Shown here piece by piece: positions 30,414-41,597 of a DNA stretch of 64,000 bases; position 1 is the stretch's first letter; every line of letters starts with the position of its first letter. The position numbers were made by a program, and so were the translations under genes. The notes below the pieces were generated by a model. It ran no database searches. It was not told the origin of the DNA and saw only the letters and a program-made list of their open reading frames with translations. The stretch is from Psychrobium sp. MM17-31 (GTDB taxonomy: Bacteria > Pseudomonadota > Gammaproteobacteria > Enterobacterales > Psychrobiaceae). The stretch spans positions 434,001-498,000 of the forward strand of contig NZ_JAKRGA010000002.1 of NCBI RefSeq assembly GCF_022347785.1. The letters are read 5' to 3'.

Positions 30414-30899
30414 ATGAGTTCACAATTAAAATCAAAAATCGGTGGCGCTTCATTAGCAATGGCAGCAGCAGGTCTAATGGGTTGTGCAGCAACAGCTGAT
30501 TCAAACACTGCAGCAGCTTCTTCATCAGCGAAAGCTGAAGTAGCGGCAAACACAGTTGAACTAGTTCACTGTTACGGCGTTAACAAATGTAACGGTCACA
30601 ACGACTGTAAAACCGCTGAAAATGCGTGTAAAGGTCAAGCAGTATGTAAAGGCCACGGCTTCGTTGCTATGCCAGCTAAAGCATGTTCTGATGTTGGCGG
30701 CGAACAAAAAGACGACTGGGTTGGTAAAACAACTAAAGTTGACCTAGTACACTGTTACGGCGTAAACGTATGTAAAGGTCACAACGACTGTAAAACTGCA
30801 AACAACGCTTGTAAAGGTCACGCATCTTGTCAAGGTCAAGGTTTTGTTGCGACAGGCGCAAAGTCATGTGAAGCCATCGGCGGTAAAGTTGGTGCTTAA
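30414..30899 (+). CDS. bufA: Bufferin-type RiPP precursor (BufA2-like), two Cys modules
   Basis: The 161-residue product is an N-terminally exported, Cys-rich precursor peptide. The signal region spans about 1-28. Two near-identical modules follow (about 47-96 and 108-157), each with six Cys at identical spacing (53, 59, 65, 72, 78, 91 and 114, 120, 126, 133, 139, 152). The shared core is HCYGVN-K/V-C, GHNDCKTA and NACKG. In the bufferin family an MNIO enzyme converts Cys to thiooxazole-type groups that buffer copper in the periplasm. The next two genes are the expected maturation pair. LMGC (21-24) could be a lipobox. Metal identity is inferred. Confidence 0.88.
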   Translation: MSSQLKSKIGGASLAMAAAGLMGCAATADSNTAAASSSAKAEVAANTVELVHCYGVNKCNGHNDCKTAENACKGQAVCKGHGFVAMPAKACSDVGGEQKDDWVGKTTKVDLVHCYGVNVCKGHNDCKTANNACKGHASCQGQGFVATGAKSCEAIGGKVGA

Positions 30900-30925
30900 T
30901 TGATACTTCAGATCAATTAATCTTT

Positions 30926-30955
30926 AAAAGGGAGACTTTATGTCTCCTTTTTTAT
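30926..30955 (+). terminator. Hairpin terminator/attenuator between bufA and bufB
   Basis: AAAAGGGAGAC (30926-30936) pairs with GTCTCCTTTTT (30942-30952) through one G-U wobble, with a five-base loop and a T-run. Placed inside an otherwise coherent operon, it should favour precursor mRNA over the downstream enzymes. Confidence 0.75.
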
Positions 30956-31012
30956 CCCCAAATTGAGCTGAGATTGGTTATAGTCACAGCAAAGTAATAC
31001 TGAGTAGCGTCC

Positions 31013-31873
31013 ATGATTAACAATCACTTTTTAGGTTTTGGCCTCGGCCTGCGTATTCCGCATTTCGAAGATGTTCTAAACGGTAATCACAATATCGATT
31101 GGTTTGAAATTCTGTCAGAAAATTACATGGTAGACGGTGGCAAGCCTCGTTATTACCTAGAACAAGTAGCCGAGCGCTACCCAGTAGTGATGCACGGTGT
31201 TTCCATGTCGATTGGCAGTACCACGCCTTTGGACACCACTTATTTAAAACAACTTAAACAATTAATGAATGATGTGAAACCACGCTGGATTTCAGATCAT
31301 TTGTGCTTTACCCAAGCTAACGGGGTAAATAGTCACGATCTTCTGCCGCTACCTTACACCGAAGAAGCAATAAATCACGTTGCTAACCGCATCATGCAGG
31401 CACAAGATTATATTGGCGAACAAATGCTAATAGAAAATGTCTCTAGCTATCTCACTTACAAAGAATCTGGCATGACCGAATGGGAGTTCTACAACGAAGT
31501 CTGTCAACGCGCCGACTGTTTAATGCTATTAGACATCAACAATATCTACGTTAGCGCTCGCAATCATCAATTTGATGCGATGGATTACGTCAACGCCATC
31601 GACGGCAAGCGCGTACGCCAAATTCACTTAGCAGGTCATACTGACTATGGCGATTACGTCATCGATACTCATGATCACGACGTATGCGATCCTGTGTGGG
31701 ATTTGTATCGCGCTGCGGTGAAAAAATTTGGCGCGGTAAGTACCATGATCGAGCGTGACGATAACATTCCACCATTTGCAGATTTAGTGGCAGAACTAGA
31801 CATTGCCAAAAAAATTGCTCATCAAGAATTGCCGGATTTAAGCAGTTGGAACAAGGAAACAGCCAATGTCTGA
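31013..31873 (+). CDS. bufB: MNIO-family (DUF692) RiPP-modifying oxidase BufB
   Basis: This is a TIM-barrel multinuclear non-haem iron oxygenase, which modifies Cys side chains of its peptide substrate in the cytoplasm. Likely iron ligands are visible in conserved positions: His61 (VMHGVSMSIG), His96 (SDHLCF), Glu141 (IENVSSY), Asp174 and the Asn pair (LDINNIYVSARNH), His205 and His209 (IHLAGH), the DTHDH segment (218-222), and Glu247 (IERDD). Length 286 fits DUF692. It follows the precursor gene after a hairpin, and its last eight bases overlap bufC. Confidence 0.92.
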   Translation: MINNHFLGFGLGLRIPHFEDVLNGNHNIDWFEILSENYMVDGGKPRYYLEQVAERYPVVMHGVSMSIGSTTPLDTTYLKQLKQLMNDVKPRWISDHLCFTQANGVNSHDLLPLPYTEEAINHVANRIMQAQDYIGEQMLIENVSSYLTYKESGMTEWEFYNEVCQRADCLMLLDINNIYVSARNHQFDAMDYVNAIDGKRVRQIHLAGHTDYGDYVIDTHDHDVCDPVWDLYRAAVKKFGAVSTMIERDDNIPPFADLVAELDIAKKIAHQELPDLSSWNKETANV

Positions 31874-32642
31874 TCTCGCGCGTCTACAACAACAATTCGT
31901 CGCCTTTTTACAAGGACAAGAATCAGCGTTTCCTGAACTTATTGGCGATCAACCACCGGTACCTACCGATGTTAGGCTTAATATTTATCACAATGCCTAT
32001 CGCATGCGACTGCGAGAAACCATCGATAATGACCATCCTATTCTAGGCACGTATCTTGGTGATGAACTCTATGACTTGATGGTGGCTAACTATATCGACA
32101 GCTATCCATCAAAAGTAAAATCACTGCGCTATTTTTGCGACGCTATTCCGCAGCTGTTAGCTGAGCAAGCGCCTTTTAATCAGCATCCTATTTTATCGCC
32201 ACTAGCAGCATTCGAACGTATCTTGCTTAGCGGTTTCGACGCTAAAGATGCCGCTGTTATTGGTATTAACGAATTAGCGACTCTGCCAGCAGAGCAATGG
32301 CCGGAGCTAACCATTGCCTTTCATCCAAGCGTACGCATTTTTGAAGAATCAATAAATGCCGTTGAAACCTGGCAAGCACTAAAATCAGAAGTTCATCCGC
32401 CGCAGCCAACTCCGCACCCGCTGCCTATCTACTGGTTAGTGTGGCGCAACCAAGAGCGATTAACCGAGTTTAGACATCTGCCACCAGCCGAAATGGTGCT
32501 CTTAAAACACTTTATCGAGGGTGGTAACTTCGCCGATGGTTGTGAACTACTCACTGAATACTTCCCTGTTGATGAAGTCCCTGCCCACGCAGTACAAATG
32601 CTGCAAAACTGGCTCAATAGCGAATTAATCACCAGTTTCTAA
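31866..32642 (+). CDS. bufC: DUF2063 partner protein BufC
   Basis: DUF2063 proteins are obligate neighbours of MNIO enzymes and are thought to bind the leader or present the precursor to BufB. The N-terminal domain (about 5-95) has the family signature VRLNIYHNAYRMRLRETI and DHPILGTYLGDE. A second domain of about 130 residues follows, with a Pro-rich linker (QPTPHPLPIYW). The start overlaps the end of bufB by eight bases, implying coupled translation. No DoxX-type bufD gene follows; the operon ends at the hairpin at 32652-32680. Confidence 0.9.
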   Translation: MSDLARLQQQFVAFLQGQESAFPELIGDQPPVPTDVRLNIYHNAYRMRLRETIDNDHPILGTYLGDELYDLMVANYIDSYPSKVKSLRYFCDAIPQLLAEQAPFNQHPILSPLAAFERILLSGFDAKDAAVIGINELATLPAEQWPELTIAFHPSVRIFEESINAVETWQALKSEVHPPQPTPHPLPIYWLVWRNQERLTEFRHLPPAEMVLLKHFIEGGNFADGCELLTEYFPVDEVPAHAVQMLQNWLNSELITSF

Positions 32643-33713: not shown

Positions 33714-34097
33714 ATGAAACTCGGTGAATTAGAAAAACTCGTACTTCACTATTTATGGAACCATGATTCACGGGATGTGAAACAAGTTTTTACCCACTTC
33801 GAACGCATTCGCGGTGGTAGTCTTAATACCTATCAAAGCACCTTAGATCGTCTGTATAAGAAAGATTTACTGGCGCGCGAGAAGGTCGGGCATGCATTTC
33901 AGTACCGTGCTAAAGTCGAACGTCATGAGCTAATTGGTCAGCTAATTAAATCGGTGACGAGTGACTTTATGGCGGAAGATGATTCGAGTCTAGTCGCGGC
34001 ATTCTCATCACTTTCCAAAGACTTTAACGTCGAGCAATTAGATAAGCTAGAACAGCTTATTGACGCCCAACGTCAGAAGCTCAAGCAGGAAGGCTAA
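33714..34097 (+). CDS. BlaI/MecI/CopY-family winged-helix repressor
   Basis: The 127-residue protein has the Penicillinase_R fold: LGELEKLVLHYLWNHD, then a helix-turn-helix (SLNTYQSTLDRLYKKDLL) and wing (REKVGHAFQYRAKV). The C-terminal helices (about 80-125) serve for dimerisation. In the family, an M56 protease inactivates the repressor on signal. Here the M56 gene follows with a one-base overlap (TAATG), two palindromic sites precede the gene and two more precede the czc operon. No beta-lactamase or mec gene is present, so the likely regulon is metal efflux plus autoregulation. Confidence 0.9.
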   Translation: MKLGELEKLVLHYLWNHDSRDVKQVFTHFERIRGGSLNTYQSTLDRLYKKDLLAREKVGHAFQYRAKVERHELIGQLIKSVTSDFMAEDDSSLVAAFSSLSKDFNVEQLDKLEQLIDAQRQKLKQEG

Positions 34098-35059
34098 TGT
34101 TGCAAGACAACCCGTCAGTCATTCTCAATATGCTTACCATCGCCGTGTTAACCTTCGCGCTGGCTAACAGTGCTGTGTCAGCAGTGGTTAGCTTATTGGC
34201 GCAGCGTTTTCTCACAACTGAAGTCAAATCACGCCGCACCATGCTGTGGTTGCTGGCCGGCCTCCCTTGGTTTGCCAGCCTGTGTGTTACGGGTTGCTTT
34301 CTCTATAAATACTACGCTAGCAATCCCTTTGAGCAACCATTCCAGTTTGCTCACTGGCATCACATGGCGAGCTTTAATTGGCTAAGCTGGCACGGCGTAA
34401 CATTGGTTATTGCTCTTTCATTAATTAGCTATGTGCTAATAAGTAAGCTGTGGCAACTGCTTAAGCACCACCGCCAATTGGCATTACTGACGCAGTTTTC
34501 TCAGCCGATTGAAGACAATCTCTATCGTCTCGAAGCGCCTTATGCCAGTGCCTTTACCAGTGGATTTATCAATAAGCGCTGTTTTGTAACAGATAATCTA
34601 ATGGCTAATACCACGGCGCAAGAGCAGGCGATTATTATTGGCCATGAGCAGGCTCATGCAAAGAATAACGATCCCTTTAAAAAGTGGTTATTTAGCCTAC
34701 TGTGCGCCTTTTTTATTCCGGCGATTGGTAAACGTTTAAAGCTACACATGACGCTCGCCATGGAGCAAGATGCCGACAACGCAGTCATTAATCATCAGCA
34801 AGATTCTACAATGGTTGCCAGTACGCTAGTGAAAATAGCTCGTTTAAACGCGCAACAAGTCCCCATTTGCGATAACGATTTAGTGGCCAGCTTTGGCGCT
34901 CAAGTATTAGAGCAACGGGTGTATTTCTTACTGGGACAATTAACACTCAAACCGGCAAATAAAGTCATTACCACTCTATTTATCGGCGCAACATTATTGC
35001 TGTGTTTAGGCTCTATCGATGCCTTGCACCATTTTATAGAAACCATTTTTAATCACTAA
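34097..35059 (+). CDS. M56 (BlaR1-like) membrane metalloprotease, sensor-less
   Basis: The protein has likely TM segments near 10-31, 48-70, 99-117, 195-212 and 288-307. The gluzincin motif HEQAH (183-187) with EQDAD (223-227) is intact in the loop that is cytoplasmic in BlaR1. The C-terminal penicillin-binding sensor of BlaR1/MecR1 is absent. The loop between TM2 and TM3, expected to be periplasmic, is rich in His (HWHH at 86-89, His99) and might bind metal. It probably cleaves or destabilises the repressor encoded one base upstream. Confidence 0.87.
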   Translation: MLQDNPSVILNMLTIAVLTFALANSAVSAVVSLLAQRFLTTEVKSRRTMLWLLAGLPWFASLCVTGCFLYKYYASNPFEQPFQFAHWHHMASFNWLSWHGVTLVIALSLISYVLISKLWQLLKHHRQLALLTQFSQPIEDNLYRLEAPYASAFTSGFINKRCFVTDNLMANTTAQEQAIIIGHEQAHAKNNDPFKKWLFSLLCAFFIPAIGKRLKLHMTLAMEQDADNAVINHQQDSTMVASTLVKIARLNAQQVPICDNDLVASFGAQVLEQRVYFLLGQLTLKPANKVITTLFIGATLLLCLGSIDALHHFIETIFNH

Positions 35060-35087
35060 ACGCACAACGTATCCGTGCGTTTTTTAT
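35058..35087 (+). terminator. Terminator after the repressor-protease pair
   Basis: AAACGCAC (35058-35065) pairs with GTGCGTTT (35075-35082), followed by TTTTATT. The stem starts in the stop codon of the M56 gene. It separates the regulatory pair from the czc operon. Confidence 0.8.
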
Positions 35088-35095
35088 TAAGCATA

Positions 35096-35116
35096 AAACC
35101 GATTAACAATAGGTTT
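35096..35116. promoter_or_regulatory. BlaI-type operator, site 3
   Basis: AAACCGAT-TAACA-ATAGGTTT has the same core as sites 1 and 2 and sits right after the terminator, about 25 bases before the czcC-like start codon. That is the position expected for repression of the efflux operon. Confidence 0.82.
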
Positions 35117-35138
35117 TATGCTAGTAAACGAGGACACC

Positions 35139-36479
35139 ATGTTATTAAACAAACTGTTATCTTGCACAAGGTCATCAACTAGCCGTTGCTGTAGATTTCA
35201 TTTACACAAAAAACCGATTGGCAATAGGTTTAAACAGTGGCCGCTATTATCATTAACGGCCCTTTCACTCCTTAGCGCGCCAGCGTGGAGCCAAGACATT
35301 ACCGCTGATGCAGACTTAAGCCTCAATCAAGCAATTAGTAAAACCCTGGCGCAGCACCCACAACTGCGCAGCTATCAATATGCCAAGCAAGTTGCCGATG
35401 GCCGGTTGCAGCAGGCCGCCACAACTACTCCCTACTCCATTAATGCGCGTGTGGAAGATGTGTTAGGCAGCGGTGAATACCGCGGTTTATCGGGCATGCA
35501 AACTAATCTAAGTATTTCATGGCTATTAGAAAATGACGTGATTGATTCGCGTATTGTTGTGGCTAAGAGCCAAGCGCAGCTTAGTCAGTTTGAGCGCCAA
35601 CTGACCGCGCTTGATGTCGCCGCCGATACCGCGACTCATTTCATCACCCTGCTATCACAGCAAGAACAGCTATCTCTCGCCAAACTAGCCCAACGCACAG
35701 CGAGCGATATGCTCACCCAAATTAGTCGCCGCGTAGCCGTTGGACAACTCACCGCAATTGATGAGTTGCGCGCTAAGGCTAATTTATCGATAAAAGCATT
35801 GGTGGTAGAAGATCTTACTCATGAAATCGAGGCTACCAAGGCACAGCTGGCAGCGCAGTGGCAAGGCAATACCGAATTTAATGTCGCAGGAAATCTGCAA
35901 GTTATTCCAACGAGTAAGCAACTCGATGGATTAATTAAGCAACTAAAAAACAGCCCACAGTTTTTACACTTTGCAGCGCAGCGCCAAATCATGCAATCGC
36001 AGATGGCGTTAGCTAAAACGACGGCGCAACCAAGTTGGAAATTCGATGTGGGTATTAAGCGCAACGAAGCTATCGATGACACGGGATTCACGGCAGGCAT
36101 TAGCATTCCTTTTGGTGGAAAAAACCGTAATCAAGGCAGGATTCGAACGCTCAATGCCCAGCAGCTACAAAACGAAGCGCAAGCCGATGCTTGGTATAGG
36201 CAGGTGAGCAAAGAGTTACTGCTAATTAGCCACAAGATCAGACACAACAGCCATGTCATAGAAACGTTATCTAATGAGACTATCCCAACGTTAGAGCAAG
36301 CTAGTAATCAAGCGAAGAAAGCTTATCAAATCGGTAGTTTGCGTTATAGCGAATGGAACGATGTCCAGCAGGAGCTTATCACCACACAAGGCGAGCTTAT
36401 CGAGGCATACACCAATATTGCCTTACTCAATATCGAGTTAGAACGCCTCGCTGGTGTATCGCTTTCCGCCAGCGAATAA
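35139..36479 (+). CDS. czcC: Outer-membrane factor of metal RND pump (CzcC/CusC type)
   Basis: TolC-fold trimeric outer-membrane channel. The mature part has two OEP repeats with long helices (SLNQAISKTLAQHPQ, LTAIDELRAKANLSIK) and a LLNIELERLAGVSLS C-terminus. I choose the ATG at 35139 because GAGGA lies just upstream; the ATG at 35118 has no such site. The N-terminal leader is unusually long: about 30 polar residues precede the hydrophobic core LLSLTALSLLSAPAWS, and an operator palindrome lies within this coding stretch. It is the first gene of the efflux operon. Confidence 0.87.
   Translation: MLLNKLLSCTRSSTSRCCRFHLHKKPIGNRFKQWPLLSLTALSLLSAPAWSQDITADADLSLNQAISKTLAQHPQLRSYQYAKQVADGRLQQAATTTPYSINARVEDVLGSGEYRGLSGMQTNLSISWLLENDVIDSRIVVAKSQAQLSQFERQLTALDVAADTATHFITLLSQQEQLSLAKLAQRTASDMLTQISRRVAVGQLTAIDELRAKANLSIKALVVEDLTHEIEATKAQLAAQWQGNTEFNVAGNLQVIPTSKQLDGLIKQLKNSPQFLHFAAQRQIMQSQMALAKTTAQPSWKFDVGIKRNEAIDDTGFTAGISIPFGGKNRNQGRIRTLNAQQLQNEAQADAWYRQVSKELLLISHKIRHNSHVIETLSNETIPTLEQASNQAKKAYQIGSLRYSEWNDVQQELITTQGELIEAYTNIALLNIELERLAGVSLSASE
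35211..35231. promoter_or_regulatory. BlaI-type operator, site 4 (inside the czcC leader region)
   Basis: AAACCGAT-TGGCA-ATAGGTTT repeats the shared core exactly, but falls within the 5' coding part of the channel gene, 115 bases beyond site 3. It could act as a downstream roadblock or support looping. Confidence 0.75.
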
Positions 36480-36516
36480 AACAAATTTTAAGAAGATTAT
36501 TTATAAAGAAACCATT

Positions 36517-37755
36517 ATGAAAAAGAATCCAATTATTAGCGCCCTACTGCTCGGCCACATCGCCCTCGTTGGTATCACAAGCAGTCAATCCGTCTTTGCT
36601 GGCGGCAGTCACGCTCATCAGCCAGCCTTGACTGACGAAGTAGAGAAAGGCCCCAACAACGGCCGTATGCTTCGTGATGGCGACTTAGCCATTGAACTAG
36701 CTATCTTTGAGACAGGTGTGCCGCCAGAATTTCGCATCTACGCTACCAATAATGAGACCGCAATATCACCGTCTGATATCGACATCAACGTTAAACTTAC
36801 TCGTTTAGGCGATGTGGTGGATGATATTAGTTTTTTCCGTGAAAACGATTACTTACGCGGTGATATGGAAATTTACGAACCGCATTCATTCGCCGTGACT
36901 CTAACAGCTACTTACCAAGGTAAGGACTATCACTGGCACTACGATAACTTCGAAGGTCGCGTCACCATTGCCGATGATCTTGCCAAAAGCATGGATATTC
37001 AAACCAGCATAATAGGTCCCAAGGCACTGCATCAGCGCCATCAAGCTTATGGCAAGTTAGTACTAGCTCCTAATGCTATACGCAATATAAGTGCGCGTTT
37101 TGCTGGCGAAGTGAAAAAGCTTCACATCACTCAAGGGCAATGGGTAACCAAGGGACAAAAATTACTGACGGTTGAGAGTAATAACAACCTGAGTAATTAC
37201 GACATCAAGGCACCGATGGCGGGATATATTAGCGCTCAGATGACAGGAGTCGGTGAACAAACTGGTGATAAAACACTATTAACTATTGCCGACACTCGCC
37301 AGCTAATTGCCGAAGTTGCGGTCTATGGCGAGATGAAAAAAGTCGTCCCTAGCGCTCCCGTTGCGCTAACCATTGGCGATACCACAGTTAATACCAACTT
37401 TTTCGATGCGCTGCCGCAGCTGACAGATAATCAGGCAAAAATTTACCGTGCTTATGTCGATAACAGCGACGGTAAATTCAGCCTAGGTCAGTTTGCTAAA
37501 GCCAGTATTTCACTCGGTACCTTTAACGCAGTCATGGCTGTTAACAAAGACGCGCTGCAAGCCTTTCGCGATTTCACCGTGGTGTACACCAAAATCGGCG
37601 AGCAATACGAAGTGCGTATGCTAGAGCTTGGTCGCGAGTCCGATGGTTGGGTTGAAATTCTCAGTGGTATCAATTCCGGTGATAGCTACGTCTCTAAAAA
37701 CAGTTACATCATTAAAGCCGATATCGAAAAATCTGGCGCATCACACGATCACTAA
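36517..37755 (+). CDS. czcB: Metal RND pump periplasmic adaptor (CzcB/CusB type)
   Basis: This membrane fusion protein joins CzcA to the outer channel. The ATG at 36517 gives a normal signal peptide (to about Ala28); the reading frame is open farther upstream but that part overlaps czcC. After cleavage the mature N-terminus has GGSHAHQ and the C-terminus SGASHDH, putative metal-binding His. The barrel-sandwich parts are ISARFAGEVKKLHITQGQW and YDIKAPMAGYISAQ. An extra N-terminal domain (about 40-150) precedes it, as in CzcB-like adaptors. It lies 10 bases before czcA. Confidence 0.9.
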   Translation: MKKNPIISALLLGHIALVGITSSQSVFAGGSHAHQPALTDEVEKGPNNGRMLRDGDLAIELAIFETGVPPEFRIYATNNETAISPSDIDINVKLTRLGDVVDDISFFRENDYLRGDMEIYEPHSFAVTLTATYQGKDYHWHYDNFEGRVTIADDLAKSMDIQTSIIGPKALHQRHQAYGKLVLAPNAIRNISARFAGEVKKLHITQGQWVTKGQKLLTVESNNNLSNYDIKAPMAGYISAQMTGVGEQTGDKTLLTIADTRQLIAEVAVYGEMKKVVPSAPVALTIGDTTVNTNFFDALPQLTDNQAKIYRAYVDNSDGKFSLGQFAKASISLGTFNAVMAVNKDALQAFRDFTVVYTKIGEQYEVRMLELGRESDGWVEILSGINSGDSYVSKNSYIIKADIEKSGASHDH

Positions 37756-37764
37756 GGACATCGC

Positions 37765-40700
37765 ATGTTAGAAGCTATTCTCAAGTTTGCGATCCAGCGT
37801 AGCAAACTCATCATGATACTGGTGCTCGCCGTTGCAGCACTCGGTATTTACAACTTTACTAAGCTGCCAATAGACGCAGTGCCTGACATCACCAATGTAC
37901 AGGTGGTGATTAACACCGAAGTAGCAGGTTACACGCCGCTTGAAGTCGAGCAGCGTATCACCTATCCACTAGAAACGGCGCTAGCAGGTGTGCCCAATCT
38001 TGAATACACCCGCTCGGTATCCCGATACGGCTTATCGCAAGTTATTGCGATTTTTAAAGACGATACCGATATTTACTTTGCCCGCCAGCTCGTTAACGAG
38101 CGCCTAAGCGCGGCAAAGTCTGAACTGCCAGCGAATGCAGAGCCAGAGCTTGGTCCTATCGCAACAGGGCTTGGCGAAATATTTATGTTTACCGTCGATG
38201 CCATCGACGGCGCCACCAATAGTGACGGTAGTGCCATTACGGCAACACAGCTGCGCACTGTTCACGACTGGATTATTCGCCCTCAGCTAATGCAAGTTGA
38301 AGGTGTGGTAGAGGTTAATCCGATTGGCGGCTTTGAGCGTGAAATTCTCGTTGCCATCAAGCCAGAGAAACTGATGGAATATGGCTTGTCTCAGCAAGAT
38401 GTGATTAGCGCCATTGGCAGCCACAATCAAAATCGCGGCGCGGGATTTATCGAGCGTAACGGCGCTCAATGGCTGATTCGCCTGCCGGGACAAATCGAAG
38501 ATATTCAGGCTCTTAACAACGTGCCAGTTTCAGGACGTGGTACACAGATCATTACCATCGGCGATGTAGCTACCGTTGGCGAAGGCAAAGAATTACGCTC
38601 TGGTGCCGCTACTCAAAATGGCCGCGAAGTGGTGTTAAGCACAGTATTTATGTTGATTGGCGAAAATAGCCAACAAGTTGCCAAAGACGTGGGTGAGCGC
38701 CTTGCTATCATCAACCAAAATCTGCCTGACGGTGTAGTCGCCAATGCGGTTTACGATCGCACAACCTTGGTCAATAAAACCCTAGACACGGTGAAGATGA
38801 ACCTCACCGAAGGCGCTATCTTAGTCATCGTTATCTTATTCATCGTGTTGGGAAATTTTCGCGCCGCGCTACTTACCGCAGCAGTGATCCCATTTGCCAT
38901 GCTAATGACAGTAACAGGCATGGTGCAAACCAAAACCAGTGCCAACTTAATGAGCTTGGGCGCGCTAGATTTCGGCCTCTTAGTAGATGGCGCCATTATC
39001 ATTGTTGAGAACTGCATGCGCCGTCTATCTCAGGCATCTCACAACGCTGTACTGCCACTAAAAGAGCGCTTGGCCTTGGTGTTTGATGCAACGCGAGAAG
39101 TGATTCGTCCCGCGCTATTTGGCGTCTTTATTATCACCGCTGTTTATCTGCCAATCTTTGCCTTATCTGGCGTTGAAGGCAAGATGTTCCACCCAATGGC
39201 GATTACCGTAGTCATTGCACTGGTTAGCGCGATGATCTTATCCGTTACCTTTGTGCCAGCCGCTATTGCCCTATTATTCAAAAAACCGGTGGTTGAAAAG
39301 CACAATATAGTGATGAGCAGCGCCGAGAAGCTCTATCGTCCACTACTTAACATCGTCATCAAAGCCCGTTGGTTAGTGATTATTATTGCCGTAGGCTTAG
39401 TAAGCAGCGCAGGATTTGTAGCCAGTAAGCTTGGCAGCGAGTTTGTGCCTAACCTTGATGAGGGCGATATCGCGATGCACGCCCTGCGTATTCCCGGCAC
39501 CTCCCTTAGCCAATCTATTGAGCTACAACGTGAGCTTGAAGCCCGTATTGCTCAGATGCCCGAAGTCGAACGCGTATTTACCAAAATTGGTACGCCAGAT
39601 GTCGCCACAGATCCTATGCCGCCAAGCGTTGCCGATACCTTCGTCATCTTAAAACCACGCGAGCTATGGCCAAATCCTGACAAGTTAAAGACAGAGGTAG
39701 TGAGTGAACTCGAAGCCATAGTTACACCAATACCTGGCAACAGGTATGAATTTCTACAGCCTATTCAAATGCGCTTTAACGAGCTGCTTGCTGGCGTGCG
39801 CTCAGAGTTGGCCGTTAAAGTATTCGGCGATGATTTCGAGACGCTAGCCGCTACTGGTAAAGCCATCGAAAAAGCCATCGCTAAGGTAGAAGGTATTCGT
39901 GATGTATCACTAGAGCAAACCAAAGGTTTGCCGATGCTCACTATTGTCGCTAACGACCAGCAACTCGCCTTTTATGGCCTTAGCAAGCAAGCGTTGCAAG
40001 AGCAGCTAGCCGTTGCCATGGGTGGCATCAATGTTGGTAAGTTTTACGAAGGTGACAAGCGCTTTGATATCGTGGTGCGCCTTGGTGAGAACGATCGCAA
40101 CAATGTCGATCAACTGCTTAATTTCCCTATCACCTTAACGGATAACCAGACTGTACCGTTAAGCCAGCTGGCAACTATTGAGATGGTTAACGGCGCTAAT
40201 CAAATCAATCGCGAAAACGGTAAACGCCGTGTGGTGGTGACCGCCAACGTACGCGGCCGCGACCTTGGCAGTTTCGTCAAAGACGTGCAGCAAGCCATTA
40301 ACGCGCAAGTGGAATTACCCGCAGGTTATTGGATTGAATACGGTGGCACCTACCAAAAACTGCAATCAGCTTCAGAGCGTTTGAGTATTGTAGTCCCTGT
40401 TACCCTGATCTTAATTATCGGCTTACTATTACTAGCAATGGGCTCATTTAAAGACTCGATGATTATCTTTAGCGGCGTACCTCTGGCGCTAACTGGCGGT
40501 ATCTTTGCCCTAGTGTTGCGAGATATTCCATTCTCAATATCAGCTGCTATCGGATTTATCGCATTATCAGGCATCGCCATCTTAAATGGCTTGGTCATGG
40601 TGTCCTTTATTCGCGATTTACGCGTAAAAGTCAGTCTTGAAGCGGCGATTATCACAGGTGCTGTGACACGTTTACGCCCAGTACTCACCACAGCACTAGT

Positions 40701-40902
40701 GGCCTCATTGGGCTTTATCCCTATGGCGCTTAACACTGGCATAGGCTCAGAAGTACAACGCCCACTAGCCACCGTAGTGATTGGCGGCGTTATTTCATCG
40801 ACGCTATTGACACTTTTTGTACTACCAGCACTTTATCGTCTGCTACACAAAGACACTTTTAGTTCAACCGATTCAACCGACTCAACACAGGAAACAATTT
40901 AG
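37765..40902 (+). CDS. czcA: Heavy-metal RND efflux pump CzcA type
   Basis: A 1045-residue proton-driven inner-membrane exporter of the HME subfamily. The TM4 relay has Asp402, Asp408 and Glu415 (LDFGLLVDGA, IIIVEN), with the same numbering as the residues essential in Cupriavidus CzcA for Co/Zn/Cd efflux. CusA-type copper pumps lack this DFG pattern. The N-terminus (LPIDAVPDITNVQVVINTE) is the HME signature. The substrate class is therefore most likely divalent Zn, Co or Cd. Its TAG overlaps the GTG of the next gene. Confidence 0.94.
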   Translation: MLEAILKFAIQRSKLIMILVLAVAALGIYNFTKLPIDAVPDITNVQVVINTEVAGYTPLEVEQRITYPLETALAGVPNLEYTRSVSRYGLSQVIAIFKDDTDIYFARQLVNERLSAAKSELPANAEPELGPIATGLGEIFMFTVDAIDGATNSDGSAITATQLRTVHDWIIRPQLMQVEGVVEVNPIGGFEREILVAIKPEKLMEYGLSQQDVISAIGSHNQNRGAGFIERNGAQWLIRLPGQIEDIQALNNVPVSGRGTQIITIGDVATVGEGKELRSGAATQNGREVVLSTVFMLIGENSQQVAKDVGERLAIINQNLPDGVVANAVYDRTTLVNKTLDTVKMNLTEGAILVIVILFIVLGNFRAALLTAAVIPFAMLMTVTGMVQTKTSANLMSLGALDFGLLVDGAIIIVENCMRRLSQASHNAVLPLKERLALVFDATREVIRPALFGVFIITAVYLPIFALSGVEGKMFHPMAITVVIALVSAMILSVTFVPAAIALLFKKPVVEKHNIVMSSAEKLYRPLLNIVIKARWLVIIIAVGLVSSAGFVASKLGSEFVPNLDEGDIAMHALRIPGTSLSQSIELQRELEARIAQMPEVERVFTKIGTPDVATDPMPPSVADTFVILKPRELWPNPDKLKTEVVSELEAIVTPIPGNRYEFLQPIQMRFNELLAGVRSELAVKVFGDDFETLAATGKAIEKAIAKVEGIRDVSLEQTKGLPMLTIVANDQQLAFYGLSKQALQEQLAVAMGGINVGKFYEGDKRFDIVVRLGENDRNNVDQLLNFPITLTDNQTVPLSQLATIEMVNGANQINRENGKRRVVVTANVRGRDLGSFVKDVQQAINAQVELPAGYWIEYGGTYQKLQSASERLSIVVPVTLILIIGLLLLAMGSFKDSMIIFSGVPLALTGGIFALVLRDIPFSISAAIGFIALSGIAILNGLVMVSFIRDLRVKVSLEAAIITGAVTRLRPVLTTALVASLGFIPMALNTGIGSEVQRPLATVVIGGVISSTLLTLFVLPALYRLLHKDTFSSTDSTDSTQETI

Positions 40903-41597
40903 TGAATAAAGCAAAAATACTCCTGTTACTGCTTATTTCGACGCTGCTAATGGCACTGACATCATTCGATGTCCTTGCCCATGGCGTTGATGATAAGACC
41001 CGTAACTTTTTAGAAAACAACAGTGGCGTGCACATTCTGCCATTTATCTATATTGGCGCTAAGCACATGGTGACAGGCTATGATCACCTGCTATTTTTAG
41101 TGGGCGTATTGTTCTTTATCCGCCGCGCTAAAGAGGTATTAATTTACGTTACCATGTTTACCGTTGGCCACTGTATTACCCTGATGAGCGGTGTATTGGC
41201 AGATATTCAAGTCAATGCGTATCTTATCGATGCCATTATCGGTTTCTCAGTTATCTACAAGGGATTTGACAACCTTGGCGGCTTTAAACGCATCTTTGGA
41301 GTGCAGCCTGATCCGAAAAAAGCCGTGCTTATTTTCGGCCTCTTTCACGGCTTTGGCCTTGCCACCAAAATCCAAGAGTTTGGGCTGCCAAGCGATGGTC
41401 TAGTACCCAACCTTATCGCCTTTAACGTTGGGGTAGAACTTGGACAAGTACTGGCGCTGATCTTTATCTTACTCGCCATCAATATTTGGCGTCGCCACCC
41501 AAGCTTTATGCGTTTTTCAGACTGGACCAATACCGCACTCATGAGCGGCGGCATTATGCTGGTTGGCATGCAGCTAACTGGCTATTTCATCAACTAA
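40902..41597 (+). CDS. HupE/UreJ-family membrane protein
   Basis: A 231-residue protein with a signal-like N-terminal helix and about six further membrane helices. HupE/UreJ hallmarks are GYDHLLFLVGVLFF, TVGHCITL and FGLFHGFGLATK, with conserved His at each. The family is linked to nickel or cobalt transport in hydrogenase/urease clusters; here it is part of a metal efflux operon, so it may handle the same divalent cation. GTG start overlapping the czcA stop (TAGTG). Confidence 0.88.
   Translation: MNKAKILLLLLISTLLMALTSFDVLAHGVDDKTRNFLENNSGVHILPFIYIGAKHMVTGYDHLLFLVGVLFFIRRAKEVLIYVTMFTVGHCITLMSGVLADIQVNAYLIDAIIGFSVIYKGFDNLGGFKRIFGVQPDPKKAVLIFGLFHGFGLATKIQEFGLPSDGLVPNLIAFNVGVELGQVLALIFILLAINIWRRHPSFMRFSDWTNTALMSGGIMLVGMQLTGYFIN

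Follow-up and report, generated by a model that had tools for sequence, protein, structure and literature searches.

A predicted Buf2-type bufferin operon with a two-module, 12-Cys precursor in Psychrobium sp. MM17-31

The stretch of Psychrobium sp. MM17-31 DNA analysed here (64,000 nucleotides, hereafter the window) contains a three-gene operon for a bufferin precursor, an MNIO maturase and a partner protein. It is read here, with a probability of about 0.85, as encoding a Buf2 (BufA2, 'Buf_6/12Cys') bufferin of the 12-Cys type already described in the literature, with maturation, export and a copper role proposed by analogy with its relatives. Double precursors of this kind have been published and are widespread, and novelty of the two-module architecture is not supported; the locus is one more member of a known family, in which the two-module form is usual in this order of marine Gammaproteobacteria.

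Operon and precursor architecture

The gene content, the family membership, the two modules and the fixed linker can be read directly from the DNA and its homologs (Table 1). The precursor matches the NCBIfam model NF050166 (Cu_RiPP_BufA2) in two stretches, with 139.5 bits against a curated cut-off of 60, and its two modules score nearly equally against this profile (74.8 and 73.6 bits). It has 13 Cys, namely Cys24 and two sets of six, located at positions 53, 59, 65, 72, 78 and 91 in the N-module and at 114, 120, 126, 133, 139 and 152 in the C-module, giving each module (~49 residues) the spacing 6-6-7-6-13 and the pair an offset of 61 residues. The modules have 69% of their residues and 73% of their bases in common, so their resemblance is not due to chance.

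The bufB product passed the NF050167 model for MNIO_BufB (383.3 bits, cut-off 310); its domain is named MbnB_TglH_ChrH in Pfam, and its closest solved structure is PDB 3bww. The bufC product, whose gene overlaps bufB by 8 bp, matches PF09836 with 55.5 bits (cut-off 27.2), is marginally below the cut-off for NGO1945_C (26.1 vs 27) and is under that of the NCBIfam HvfC model (34.7 vs 142). The order bufA-bufB-bufC was found in 77 of the 79 two-module loci examined. A first-pass annotation of this DNA had described a bufferin-type (BufA2) operon with two modules of about 50 residues, their spacing and offset, an MNIO (DUF692) gene and an overlapping DUF2063 gene; the coordinates, the Cys positions and the NCBIfam and Pfam matches all agree with it. 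Two features were absent from that annotation, the Cys24 of the LMGC motif and a hairpin between bufA and bufB.

Table 1. Coordinates of the bufferin genes and associated features, in window positions except for the Buf1 operons
Feature	Coordinates	Strand	Evidence
bufA2, two-module (12-Cys) bufferin precursor, 161 aa	30414..30899	+	NCBIfam NF050166 Cu_RiPP_BufA2
Predicted Sec signal peptide, ends in lipobox-like LMGC (Cys24)	30414..30485	+	sequence, pattern match
N-terminal 6-Cys module	30558..30704	+	
Linker Cys91-Cys114, fixed length, conserved DxWxG (D100, W102, G104)	30687..30752	+	
C-terminal 6-Cys module	30741..30887	+	
Terminator-like hairpin with T-run, bufA-bufB gap	30926..30952	+	11-bp stem
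bufB, MNIO (DUF692) maturase, 286 aa	31013..31873	+	PF05114 376 bits; NF050167; 3bww relative
bufC, DUF2063 partner protein (PME type 1), 258 aa	31866..32642	+	PF09836
Buf1 operons, contig C2	L002 191-2604; L003 204-2634		

The hairpin lies in the 113-base gap between bufA and bufB, and the surrounding 60 bases fold with -17.6 kcal/mol. Similar hairpins are present in 22 of 81 relatives, compared with 0.4% of mononucleotide-shuffled gaps; a stricter consensus terminator scan of the window omits it because its T-run overlaps the stem. The hairpin is likely a partial terminator, which, upstream of bufB, would favour the precursor over the enzyme in amount. No known RNA elements were found near the operon.

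Directly 3' of bufC is a gene for a voltage-gated-type ion channel (PF00520, 32749-33534), followed in 33714-41597 by genes for a BlaI/CopY-family regulator, an M48/M56-type peptidase, a CusA/CzcA-type heavy-metal efflux set and then a HupE/UreJ-like gene. These downstream genes are not counted in the operon because their order is common only to near relatives, the ion channel being kept in two of them (L067 and L069) and the regulator and peptidase in one (L067). Copper-box (TACANNTGTA) sites for a CopY-like regulator were searched for, and none were present within the window. Two more MNIO operons in this genome are Buf1 (DUF2282) systems, each with MNIO, partner and DoxX genes, which brings the bufferin systems to three; one of them (L003) has thioredoxin-like and YHS-domain genes immediately upstream.

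Occurrence and descent of the two-module form

The first-pass annotation had taken known BufA2 peptides to carry one module, which is contradicted by the literature and by the survey made here. Antoine et al. 2025 (PMC12452194) named the family Buf_6/12Cys, with 6 conserved Cys in 90% of the Buf2 precursors and 12 in the remainder (~10%), presented an AlphaFold2 model of one 12-Cys member as duplicated 6-Cys domains and gave as a 12-Cys example WP_077285100 of Cognaticolwellia aestuarii. Among BufA2 proteins over the cut-off, counted by hand from match tables, the two-module share is 4/33 across the phylum and 24/29 in the window's own order. The strict 6-6-7-6-13 spacing is also present in 107 unique relatives recovered by similarity search (from Shewanella, Colwellia, Amphritea, Marinobacterium, Marinicella, Motilimonas and others), 84 double and 23 single, a split that is not an estimate of frequency because a two-module query biases the search to two-module proteins. 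None of the 107 has a triple or longer array. The annotation had held that its reading would fall if two-module peptides were already common and characterised; common they are in this order (24/29), but no biochemical characterisation of any 12-Cys form, including modification, metal binding and copper response, was found in the accessible literature.

Two loci of the survey (L127 and L139) have two-module bufferin genes with no BufB or BufC match in the flanks examined and are possible orphan precursors. Another two-module bufferin (L128, 4001-4483) has one additional Gly per module (KGQGGF), which places it outside the strict Cys-spacing pattern.

All but one of the 84 unique double proteins (83/84) have a module offset of exactly 61, with an N-terminal region of variable length. 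The nearest neighbour in other proteins is an N-module for 79/83 N-modules and a C-module for 79/83 C-modules, and these own-kind neighbours suggest one old duplication behind the two-module form. A clean two-clade split of all N- and C-modules was sought and not obtained (13-14 label changes in a poorly resolved tree of 49 columns). Across kinds, two modules from the same protein resemble each other somewhat more than two from different proteins (0.76 vs 0.71), and with a tree lacking clean clades some exchange between the modules of one protein is possible. In the BufB tree, enzymes that accompany double precursors lie largely apart from those that accompany single ones (3 changes for the double label).

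The linker brings in a different reading of the double form, in which the fixed offset and the DxWxG motif would lock the two modules rigidly together, with a copper site that they share or bridge, so that the protein would differ in kind from two single-module bufferins. D100, W102 and G104 are near-invariant alignment columns, AlphaFold2 places a strand at 97-107 with a pLDDT of about 90, and the N- and C-modules retain separate identities, which would fit one joint metal site or bridge. However, the whole model is modest (mean pLDDT 66, pTM 0.56), and folding or common descent could also explain the fixed linker; a joint site is considered unlikely. If it did exist, the double form would offer a natural way to tell independent from joint action of bufferin modules in copper binding. 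No credible sequence match to a solved structure was found for the precursor, and Foldseek gave no PDB match at E 0.001, a negative of little weight given the modest model.

Proposed maturation, export and metal binding

In Buf1, the central Cys pair is converted to thiooxazoles and the outer pair forms a disulfide (PMC12452194). Aligned to the Buf2 modules, the Buf1 Cys of the two precursors of the same genome fall on Cys 1, 3, 4 and 6, which suggests, by analogy, that Cys 3 and 4 are modified and that Cys1-Cys6 of each module is a disulfide, hence that not every Cys is modified. The expectation of the first-pass annotation that the double form could hold twice as many modified Cys is thus plausible for the module pair, although Cys1 and Cys6 of each module would be left unmodified. 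Buf2 of Caulobacter vibrioides resembles Buf1 in its per-Cys mass loss, absorbance and copper-related function, its chemistry being unsolved.

BufB here has the motif IERDDN, with an Asp after the catalytic Asp at the position of FonB Phe250, and Asp at this position was reported for Cys-Lys-type MNIOs (PMC13097082). ERDD is present in BufB of 52/81 two-module loci, compared with 20/21 single-module loci.

The Cys-Lys motif presumably contributes to recognition by the enzyme. Lys after Cys4 occurs in 32 and 22 of 83 double forms for the two modules, being absent in many, and the window precursor lacks Lys after Cys2 in its first module and after Cys5 in its second; these missing motifs count against the proposed maturation. 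Their partial loss in one or other module would also fit a degenerate, unmodified copy, a reading that is very improbable given the near-equal BufA2 profile scores of the two modules and the 12/12 Cys invariant in 83 double proteins (where the survey pattern itself demands them) and in a 38-row alignment picked by similarity.

The N-terminal hydrophobic stretch of the precursor terminates at LMGC, and by pattern match a lipobox-like motif is present in 53/83 two-module proteins and 0/23 single-module ones; lipoprotein signals have been described in about 16% of the Buf2 precursors (Antoine et al. 2025, PMC12452194). From this motif, Cys24 is probably lipidated.

Here it is proposed that the precursor would be produced in excess, with the hairpin before bufB restricting readthrough, and would be bound in the cytosol by BufC and BufB. 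In each module, BufB would oxidise part of the Cys to 5-thiooxazoles, with Cys3 and Cys4 as the likeliest targets and Cys2 and Cys5 as possible further ones, and Cys1 and Cys6 would pair as a disulfide. The matured product would leave by Sec and, with a probable lipid on Cys24 anchoring it in an envelope membrane, would chelate excess copper in the periplasm.

With the same maturation, the peptide could instead act on a different metal (gold, mercury or zinc) or in oxidative stress. A CusA/CzcA-type efflux system (1412 bits) and a BlaI/CopY-family regulator are located 1-8 kb from the operon, and both MerC-Buf2 fusions and bufferin operons induced by gold are on record; nevertheless, this neighbourhood is common only to the nearest relatives and may be chance proximity, and copper is the sole metal tested for a Buf2, so a function other than copper is regarded as quite unlikely.

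Comparison with known bufferins

Similarly to the Psychrobium operon, Buf1 (DUF2282) systems have an MNIO and a partner protein, and their four Cys correspond to four of the six in a Buf2 module; however, Buf1 has only those four Cys in a single domain and a DoxX gene in the operon. No DoxX was found beside two-module operons in 67 full-flank loci (tblastn with two queries, a weak search as DoxX diverges fast). Lys-Cys-type enzymes such as 3bww have Phe at the position where BufB here has Asp.

The single-module BufA2 proteins, including that of Caulobacter vibrioides, share the Cys spacing, the NCBIfam model and a BufB-type MNIO, and differ in having one module, no lipobox-like motif and Lys after Cys4 (23/23 of those sampled). 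From the 12-Cys Buf2 subtype no difference in kind was found, and both have two 6-Cys domains and MNIO and DUF2063 genes, with a signal peptide predicted for the window precursor. A Cognaticolwellia aestuarii homolog (L084), from the species of the published example and not necessarily WP_077285100 itself, is 64% identical to the window precursor in the best segment and likewise has an offset of 61.
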